This document shows, piece by piece, positions 26,806 through 29,613 of a DNA stretch of 48,871 nt. The notes under the pieces are model-generated. The model searched no databases. It worked only from the letters and a program-made list of their open reading frames with translations, and was not told where the DNA came from. This DNA comes from a virus. Position 1 is the stretch's first letter, and every line of letters starts with the position of its first letter. Position numbers and translations under genes: made by a program. The stretch spans positions 1 to 48,871 of IMG/VR virus record IMGVR_UViG_3300044818_000014, one strand, 5' to 3'.

Positions 26806-27395
26806 CCACCCTGTTCGAGATCACGCCTGAGGTTCCGGCCGCCACCCCGGCGGCCCGGCCGCGGCCCCTGCGAGTAGCAGGCCTCGACGTGTCGCTCACC
26901 GGCACCGCAATCGCCACCGCCGGCGGGACCGTGCGCATCCCCACCAAGGGCAAGCGCAAGGACACCCTGATCGTCCGGCATCAACGGCTCCAGAACATCG
27001 CCCGCCAGACCCTCGAAGCCGTCGGGATCGTCGACCTCGCCGTCATCGAAGGCCCGTCCTACCACTCCGTGGGCGGCTCTCCGTGGGACCGCGGCGGCCT
27101 GTGGTGGCTCATCGTCGACGGCCTGCTCGACCGTGAGATCCCCACCGCTGTCATGCCGCCCATGTGCCGGGCCAAGTACGCCACCGGTTCTGGGGCGGCC
27201 CGCAAGCAGCACGTCATCGACGCTGTGGAGAAGACGTACGGAGTCACCGTGGGGTCGGATGACGAGGCCGATGCGATCGCGCTGAGGGCGGCGGGCCTCG
27301 ACTGGGCAGGGCAGCCGCTCGTCGTGCTGCCTGAGACCTACCGCGGTGCGCTCCTCAACTGCGAGTGGCCCGAGCGCGAGGCGGTGACCCTCTGA
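26802..27395 (+). CDS. RuvC-like Holliday junction resolvase
   Basis: 197 residues, GTG start. The RNase H-like fold carries the usual acidic set: GLDVSLTGTA (D29), VIEGPSY (E~83) and DDEADAIAL (D/E ~154-158). Such phage RuvC-like proteins cut four-way or branched DNA before packaging or during recombination. It is in the same operon as the RecE-like and DnaQ-like nucleases. A second junction nuclease (endonuclease VII type) is encoded at 37699. Confidence 0.85.
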   Translation: MTTLFEITPEVPAATPAARPRPLRVAGLDVSLTGTAIATAGGTVRIPTKGKRKDTLIVRHQRLQNIARQTLEAVGIVDLAVIEGPSYHSVGGSPWDRGGLWWLIVDGLLDREIPTAVMPPMCRAKYATGSGAARKQHVIDAVEKTYGVTVGSDDEADAIALRAAGLDWAGQPLVVLPETYRGALLNCEWPEREAVTL

Positions 27396-28270
27396 TGCCC
27401 CGCCACCCCAACGCCACCCGCGAACAGATCGAAGCCGCCCTCCGGGCAGGCAAGCCCACCCTCACCATCGCCACCGAACTCCGCGTCGACCGCGGACGCG
27501 TCCGCCGCATCCGCAACGACCTGGACCTCCCCGCGTTCGTTCCCGCCGAACAGACCCGCACCCCTCAACAGAAGTGGGCCACATACGCCCGCACCCTCGA
27601 CGACGGCCACATGGAATGGACCGGCGAACGCGTCGGCACCGCCGGCACCCCGGTCATGCGCTACAAGGACCAGTGCCTCAGCCCCACCGCGCTCGCCTTC
27701 GAACTGCGGCACGGACGCCCCCCCCAGGGCTACGCAATCGCCGACTGCGGGCTCAAGCACTGCATCGCACCCAACCACGTCAACGACGAACCCGGACGCC
27801 TCCAAGCCCGCCGCGCACTCCACAACGGCGGCCCGCGGAAGCCCTGCTCGTACGGCCACGACCAGAACGAGCACGGCAAGTTCGACCCCACCGGCCGCGC
27901 GTACTGCGGCCTGTGCAAAGCCCTCCACAAACAGGAGCGCCGCGATCCGCTGGCCCCCAAGCGGGAGCGCACACGCCCGCGGCCCACCTCGCTGGAGGAC
28001 GTCTTCCACGCCCACATCGAGGAGGCCGACGCCGGACACGTCCGATGGGCCGGACCGGTCATGCACCGTACGCCGGCCGTGAAGTTCGACGGCCGGACGG
28101 AGTCCGCGTTCCGGGTCGCGTTCCGCCTGCATCACGGGCGTGACCCGGAGGGACTGGCGATGCCCACCTGCGGTGTGCCGTTGTGCGTGGCGGGCGGGCA
28201 TCTGGAGGACCGGCCGATGCGGCAGTTGTCGCGGCTGCTGTTCGAGTCGATCTTCGGGGAGGCGTCGTGA
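27395..28270 (+). CDS. HTH protein with two degenerate HNH modules
   Basis: 291 residues, ATGA start. The N-terminal ~50 residues (TREQIEAALRAGKPTLTIAT then RVDRGRVRRIRND) form a helix-turn-helix. Two later modules, about residues 70-130 and 214-272, share GH-[MV]-x-W-[TA]-G, then F-x-L-x-HGR-x-P-x-G and CG-x3-C-x4-H, the layout of actinobacterial HNH proteins. The His of the usual DH catalytic motif is absent in both, so nuclease activity is doubtful. The modules flank a Cys-x2-Cys knuckle (YCGLC). The same module is fused to WhiB in the next gene. Confidence 0.75.
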   Translation: MPRHPNATREQIEAALRAGKPTLTIATELRVDRGRVRRIRNDLDLPAFVPAEQTRTPQQKWATYARTLDDGHMEWTGERVGTAGTPVMRYKDQCLSPTALAFELRHGRPPQGYAIADCGLKHCIAPNHVNDEPGRLQARRALHNGGPRKPCSYGHDQNEHGKFDPTGRAYCGLCKALHKQERRDPLAPKRERTRPRPTSLEDVFHAHIEEADAGHVRWAGPVMHRTPAVKFDGRTESAFRVAFRLHHGRDPEGLAMPTCGVPLCVAGGHLEDRPMRQLSRLLFESIFGEAS

Positions 28271-28830
28271 GCGCCTACACCGGGCAGGTCCCCGACACCG
28301 AACCCGCAGGCCAGTGGACCACGCAAGGCCCCTGCCGCGACGACCCCGAACGTATGTACCCCGGCACCCTCGCAGCCGAGATCGAGGAAGCCAAGGCCGT
28401 CTGCCGCCGCTGCCCCGTCATGGAGCAGTGCCTGCAGTGGGCGCTGGAGACCCGCGAGCCGTTCGGCGTGTGGGGTGGCACGTCGGAGGCGGACCGGCGC
28501 GCCTACTTCCGGCGGCGCGGCTACCACCTGAAGAACCTCGACAGCGACTTCGAGGAGGGCGCTGGCCCGGCCCGCACTCTTCGGTCCCTGTGGGCTGAAC
28601 GCACGCTCGCTGGCGGCGGGCACATGGCCTGGACGGGGTCGGTGCCGGTGAGTTTCCAGGGCCGCGTGTATACGCCGCACCGGATCGGGTTCGAGCTGGA
28701 CCGTGGCCGGTCGCCGGTGGGGCTGGTGCGTGCGCGGTGCGGGGTGGCGGGGTGTGTGCTGCCTGCTCATCTTGCGGACCAGGTGGAGCGGGCTGAGGCG
28801 CGTGCGGCACAGACGGCGATCGCGTCATGA
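28267..28830 (+). CDS. WhiB-like regulator fused to a degenerate HNH module
   Basis: 187 residues, GTG start in a GTGA overlap. The N-terminal half is a WhiB domain with C23-x22-C46-x2-C49-x5-C55 for a 4Fe-4S cluster and the FGVWGG turn. WhiB proteins act with the primary sigma factor and respond to redox or NO; phage copies can alter host transcription. Residues ~118-175 carry the GHMAWTG...CG-x3-C-x4-H module also found twice in the preceding protein, again lacking the catalytic His. The fusion is unusual; WhiB proteins are normally ~80-130 residues. Confidence 0.85.
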   Translation: MSAYTGQVPDTEPAGQWTTQGPCRDDPERMYPGTLAAEIEEAKAVCRRCPVMEQCLQWALETREPFGVWGGTSEADRRAYFRRRGYHLKNLDSDFEEGAGPARTLRSLWAERTLAGGGHMAWTGSVPVSFQGRVYTPHRIGFELDRGRSPVGLVRARCGVAGCVLPAHLADQVERAEARAAQTAIAS

Positions 28831-29254: not shown

Positions 29255-29449
29255 TCAGGACTCGGCGGATTCCGCCTGCCGCTTCGCCTCGATGGCCTCG
29301 GCCTCGGGCACGGGCACGAGCGCAGCGACGCGCCGGCCGTGGCTCGTGACGTACGTGATCCGGCCGCGAACGGCGGTGTCGTTCAGGACCTCGGACATGG
29401 TCGCCCGCAGTTCGCGGATTCCGATCTCGGCGCTTGTGGTCGCAGGCAT
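29255..29449 (-). CDS. Phd/YefM-type antitoxin, orphan
   Basis: 64 residues, ATG at 29449. The sequence EIGIRELRATMSEVLNDTAV then GRITYVTSHGRRVAALVPV is the N-terminal DNA-binding fold of Phd/YefM antitoxins (beta-alpha with the RELR turn and RITYVTxHGR strand). No toxin gene lies beside it on either strand. It could neutralise a host toxin or act as a regulator. Palindromic sequence at 29480-29494 upstream may be its operator. Confidence 0.75.
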   Translation of the reverse strand: MPATTSAEIGIRELRATMSEVLNDTAVRGRITYVTSHGRRVAALVPVPEAEAIEAKRQAESAES

Positions 29450-29479
29450 ACACACATGGTAGCTGGGGTTCACCAGAGA

Positions 29480-29494
29480 ACATATGTGTACACA
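29480..29494. promoter_or_regulatory. Overlapping palindromes between antitoxin and replication operon
   Basis: ACATATGT (29480-29487) and TGTGTACACA (29485-29494) are perfect palindromes in the divergent region between the antitoxin start and the gene at 29614. Phd proteins bind similar short palindromes, so autoregulation is plausible. Confidence 0.45.
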
Positions 29495-29613
29495 AATCCG
29501 GTAGGATCTGAGGCAGAGGAGCCGCCTGTGAAACCGCCCTGACTGGGGCCTGCCAGGCATGCCCTGACCAGCCACTTCACCCCAGGAACTCAGCGAGAAA
29601 GGCACCACCGCAC

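Follow-up and report, generated by a model that had tools for sequence, protein, structure and literature searches.

What is the function of a nuclease-like module on a WhiB-type regulator? This question is raised by two overlapping genes in a phage of Streptomyces type, which together encode three copies of an HNH-like module, two in a 291-aa protein and one behind a WhiB domain. The original prediction for this locus held that the modules keep their zinc-type residues but not the catalytic His, and took this to suggest that the fold has been reused as a DNA-binding or docking unit. We report here that the catalytic loss and the fusion to WhiB are real and conserved, while the role in DNA binding or docking is one that we infer. 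The original prediction was silent on the helix-turn-helix (HTH) and the ribbon of the 291-aa protein, and also on the usual coupling of HTH and module, the recurrent adjacency of WhiB and the fusion as a recurring architecture, all of which are described below.

Results

Layout of the two genes

The window, meaning the whole stretch of DNA analyzed, is a virus record of 48.9 kb (48,871 nucleotides). Both genes reside on the plus strand and share a four-base overlap, with the GTG start of the WhiB gene overlapping the stop of the gene for the 291-aa protein. The features are as follows.

27395..28270, +, 291-aa HTH / double degenerate-HNH protein (ORF; phrog_826; AF2)
27413..27535, +, N-terminal resolvase-like HTH, residues 7-47 (AF2, structure and profile matches)
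27605..27799, +, module 1, residues 71-135 (H72, C118, C123, H128; catalytic His position A116)
27845..27916, +, CxxGH...CxxC zinc-ribbon-like linker, residues 151-174 (conservation in alignment A4)
28034..28222, +, module 2, residues 214-276 (H215, C259, C264, H269; catalytic position P257)
28267..28830, +, 187-aa WhiB-module fusion protein (ORF with GTG start; Pfam; PHROGs; AF2)
28315..28518, +, WhiB domain, residues 17-84 (C23, C46, C49, C55; GVWGG 67-71)
28618..28791, +, module 3, fused to WhiB, residues 118-175 (H119, C158, C163, H168; catalytic position A156)

The gene pair sits in a DNA-metabolism region, its neighbors in the window comprising a RuvC-like resolvase, a DNA-polymerase-exonuclease-like protein and a helicase-primase. 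The next likely gene beyond the WhiB gene is on the opposite strand (29255-29608, -) and encodes a Phd-family antitoxin-like protein (TIGR01552, 26.2 bits vs. a cut-off of 20.8).

The module and its descent from HNH_3 nucleases

The three modules, each about 60 residues in length, aligned pairwise with Smith-Waterman scores of 131, 109 and 119, whereas shuffled sequences averaged 23-24 and never exceeded 58, 0 of 5000 shuffles per pair reaching the score. A failure of the modules to align had been named beforehand as grounds for refutation; they align with each other and with true HNH nucleases. The first motif of the original prediction is indeed shared, but its spacing is GH-x2-W-[TA]-G and not GH-x-W. 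The catalytic position, defined as two residues before the first Cys, is His in canonical HNH domains and is occupied by Ala, Pro and Ala in the modules of the window, all of which retain the zinc-type residues, as predicted. In a sample of 160 module domains (145 distinct sequences) drawn from viral contigs, phage records and genomes, the zinc-type residues were conserved at H3 (135 of the 145), C48 (144), C53 (144) and H/C58 (144, with 131 His and 13 Cys), and D61 and R65 were near-invariant. The catalytic position was mostly Ala, Pro or Arg; the 4 modules of the 145 with His there are canonical nucleases elsewhere in the same loci. The Asn position was also lost in almost all modules, and no alternative conserved His that might serve as a replacement base was found among the 145. 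As the last His exchanges with Cys across modules, its more plausible role is that of a zinc ligand. As judged by these residues, the modules have kept a zinc-type site while losing the cutting residues, with those of the window lacking both the catalytic His and the Asn expected of an HNH nuclease, and the putative ligands of the module would likely bind zinc. Two fused modules (L257 and L258) carry a shortened C-x4-C-V-x-H-L loop, possibly reflecting further decay of the zinc site.

Pfam and NCBIfam by themselves did not recognize the modules, with Pfam HNH_3 scoring 12.3 and 11.4 bits in the window proteins, below the gathering cut-off of 24.8. A profile built solely from modules without the catalytic His found HNH_3 nucleases with domain E-values of 9.7e-5 to 9.9e-14, Corynebacterium phage Stiles gp46 among them; these nucleases score far above the Pfam HNH_3 cut-off (E 5e-11 to 4e-17). 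In addition, profile-profile comparison of the modules with HNH_3 in hhalign gave a probability of 98.8%. Because a profile of dead modules alone recovers Pfam-confirmed HNH_3 nucleases, we consider the module to be a degenerate HNH. The modules have in common with the HNH_3 / I-PpoI-type His-Me finger the register (VDH-x-C-x4-C-V-N-P-x-H-L in true nucleases), the C-x4-C-x4-H loop, W-x-G and G-x-x-P-x-G, but differ in two respects: 1) the general-base His, the Asn and the AHR His are absent; 2) the first ligand is His in the modules vs. Cys in canonical members. In I-PpoI, the catalytic His is H98 and the zinc loop reads C100-x4-C105-x4-H110, a spacing identical to that in the modules.

Predicted structure of the module

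Structure prediction, proposed earlier as a check for an HNH-like fold, yielded a confident His-Me-finger-like domain in the AF2 models, which were built with alignments of relatives as input, as exemplified by module 3 with pLDDT of 94-98 across most of its length. Mean pLDDT was 91.6 for the 291-aa protein and 80.6 for the 187-aa protein. Structural matches to the modules included I-PpoI (Z 4.3-5.9; module 1, Z 5.3-5.9 across ~90 residues), I-HmuI (Z 4.7) and Smad MH1 and NFI (Z ~4-4.7; module 2 vs. Smad MH1, Z 4.2-4.7). With Foldseek E-values of at least 0.3 and Z of 4-6, under the trust level of the tool, these matches are weak and count against a DNA-binding role; we give the structural neighbors weight because they agree with the sequence homology. 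The PDB entries 1cyq and 2o6m are, by their titles, I-PpoI H98A and H98Q bound to DNA. When the PDB was searched with a sequence profile built from the 291-aa family in full, only HTH proteins came up and I-PpoI was absent. Smad MH1 and NFI are homing-endonuclease-type zinc domains that serve as DNA-binding domains of transcription factors, a type to which the modules may also belong; however, they are eukaryotic, and sequence homology to the modules was not detected. Smad MH1 has been regarded as a degraded homing endonuclease (Grishin 2001, as cited in PMC4999995), and a search for literature on I-PpoI, Smad and NFI together gave no results.

The 291-aa protein and its family

In the 291-aa protein the order is HTH, module 1, ribbon and module 2. 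The HTH helices span residues 9-17, 22-29 and 33-42 in the AF2 model and match gamma-delta resolvase (Z 5.4), Tn3 resolvase (Z 5.3) and the Tn552 DNA-invertase (E 0.011); HTH_23 is present in 37 of 50 relatives. The ribbon residues C151, G154, H155, C171 and C174 are at least 90% conserved in alignment A4. The usual unit among relatives is HTH plus module, sometimes doubled, and an HTH-module-ribbon-HTH-module layout occurs in five loci (L042, L043, L065, L067, L068). The 291-aa protein seems to derive from such a doubled unit by loss of the second HTH. Three successive HTH domains precede the module at L005 2575-3570 (phage TurkishDelight) and in L077, L095 and L103.

By PHROGs, the 291-aa protein belongs to phrog_826 'HNH endonuclease' (E 1.4e-38), the family of, e.g., Streptomyces phage SF3 gp62, and its relatives carry the same annotation. 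This label asserts a nuclease activity to which the sequences lend no support. Matches to phrog_826 were found in 71 of 199 sampled Streptomyces genomes, and the family also matches the WhiB-module protein at residues 102-182 (E 4.5e-9). We considered whether phrog_472 (523 positions), matched by both proteins, represents a WhiB-HTH-module fusion and rejected it, as its two best Streptomyces matches are WhiB proteins without the module.

The WhiB domain and the recurring fusion

In the 187-aa protein, the WhiB domain is followed by module 3. The WhiB cysteines fall exactly where the original prediction had put them, and the Pfam Whib match (E 2.3e-21; 76.5 bits vs. a cut-off of 23.6) agrees with it. 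The nearest solved Wbl protein, WhiB1 (E 4.4e-17 in the PDB; 51% identity across the Foldseek-aligned part), shares the four Cys, GVWGG and the predicted fold. Structural matches of the WhiB part, with Z up to 6.5, comprise WhiB1, WhiB3, WhiB7 and an S. venezuelae WhiB, solved together with sigma region 4 or RNA polymerase. The window WhiB differs from the Wbl family in its added C-terminal degenerate HNH module; in the literature consulted, the extra parts described for other Wbl proteins are an AT-hook in WhiB7 and an ECF sigma in WblP (PMC6282962). The original prediction knew of no such domain combination among described WhiB proteins, and indeed we found no WhiB-HNH fusion in the open-access literature, including the consulted passages of a phage WhiB survey (PMC8612146) and the Wbl review (PMC6282962).

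For gene linkage, 73 loci were picked by the HTH-module protein only and WhiB was sought in their flanks. This yielded 42 WhiB genes, all on the same strand and 41 of them within ~1 kb, with 29 of these 41 downstream of the HTH-module gene. Isolated phages in which the HTH-module and WhiB genes are near each other include Mischief19 and phiSAJS1. The fusion itself recurs in phages, prophages and Streptomyces genomes, with 29 non-redundant examples counting the window (24 in alignment A3 and 5 in Streptomyces genomes), i.e. 28 sequences besides the window; a search of 50,697 phage records found no place covering 80% of the fusion. All 24 fused rows of A3 keep the four WhiB Cys as well as H119, C158, C163, D171 and R175. 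In a module tree with few columns and mostly poorly resolved branches, the fused class needs 2 changes, which makes one or two origins of the fusion likely. One candidate fusion, L146, was rejected for having no module.

Two fusions lie in tandem at L048 2174-3696 and L050 2174-3561, with a third WhiB upstream in L048. Fusions in eight loci (L008, L044, L048, L052, L055, L120, L135, L136) end in CGTRxxYxRH...C...RTGTTKAL, likely a third zinc-ribbon-like domain, and this motif is also found on the module-less WhiB proteins L009 and L010.

Discussion

We surmise that the two genes probably encode a pair of phage transcription regulators, with the fused module as a putative DNA-binding domain directing a sigma-binding WhiB coactivator to its sites. 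The module itself would be a non-cutting, zinc-stabilized domain in contact with DNA at promoter targets. The 291-aa protein would bind DNA via its HTH and two dead zinc-stabilized HNH modules rather than act as a nuclease. By its likeness to sigma-bound WhiB1 and WhiB3, the 187-aa protein may take up a [4Fe-4S] cluster and bind region 4 of the host principal sigma, while the fused module would provide a sequence-specific DNA contact that ordinary WhiB proteins do not have. Acting alone or together with the neighboring HTH-module protein, the fusion may thus bring sigma/RNA polymerase to chosen phage or host promoters, or block it there. A dN/dS below 1 for both genes vs. the closest relative favors a regulator pair. 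Counting against DNA binding by the module are its only slightly positive net charge (mean +1.4) and scans for repeats, promoters and terminators near the two genes, which gave nothing convincing and hence no candidate for a binding site.

The main rival to DNA binding is that the module is a unit for protein docking or dimerization, with module 3 pairing with the modules of the HTH protein so that WhiB is recruited to HTH-bound sites. We consider this rather unlikely, even though the genes overlap here and usually adjoin elsewhere, and I-PpoI is a dimer. Docking is strengthened by WhiA, in which, according to the Wbl review (PMC6282962), DNA is bound by the HTH but not by the dead endonuclease domain itself; binding of DNA is therefore not a given for a dead homing endonuclease. 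Speaking against docking are the fusions in four loci of 37-71 kb (L048, L050, L051, L052) without an intact HTH-module gene by profile, although these records may be fragments. That the modules still cut or nick DNA through a displaced active site is improbable: the label on relatives and the near-invariance of D61 and R65 would fit, but nearly all modules have lost the positions of the His base and Asn while retaining the zinc-type ligands, and no substitute His is conserved.

We also give little credence to the notion that the main effect of the fusion is that of a dominant-negative WhiB, silencing host WhiB-dependent genes in the manner of the WhiB of phage TM4, with the module merely stabilizing it. 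WhiBTM4 is indeed reported to lower whiB2 and has been tied to superinfection exclusion (PMC8612146, PMC6282962, PMC11797047). However, WhiBTM4 and most phage WhiBs are small and devoid of the module, and the fused modules conserve their zinc-type pattern. A functionless gene fusion or an annotation artefact, for which the general mosaicism of phage genomes is the sole argument, is almost certainly not the explanation, given the recurrence of 29 non-redundant fusions with cysteines conserved in both domains.

Returning to a regulator pair with a DNA-binding module, the phage layout parallels the WhiA-WhiB logic of Streptomyces with an unrelated fold. WhiA likewise combines an HTH with a catalytically dead homing-endonuclease domain and has WhiB as its partner (PMC6282962). 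However, the WhiA fold is LAGLIDADG, unrelated to the phage HNH, and the WhiA family was absent from the phage protein in a Pfam scan to E 10, so WhiA is an analogue at most. More tentatively, we entertain the possibility that actinophages have built a WhiA-WhiB-like activator of their own from another homing endonuclease (an HTH with a dead HNH, paired with WhiB), and that one lineage moved the dead-nuclease DNA-binding domain onto WhiB, creating a stand-alone site-specific regulator out of a sigma-binding Fe-S coactivator.

According to the Wbl review, Wbl proteins bind sigma and mostly have no recognized DNA-binding motif, promoters are co-bound by WhiB and WhiA, and Wbl site specificity is thought to depend on partners, which is why promoter choice by WhiB is an open question (PMC6282962). 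That choice could be tested directly with a naturally occurring WhiB of this kind, which carries a putative DNA-binding domain as a portable part. Our data also suggest that 'HNH endonuclease', a common phage label (phrog_826), is functionally misleading. If the module indeed binds DNA, it would be an example from bacterial viruses of what has been proposed for Smad MH1, namely a homing-endonuclease fold that has become part of a transcription factor.
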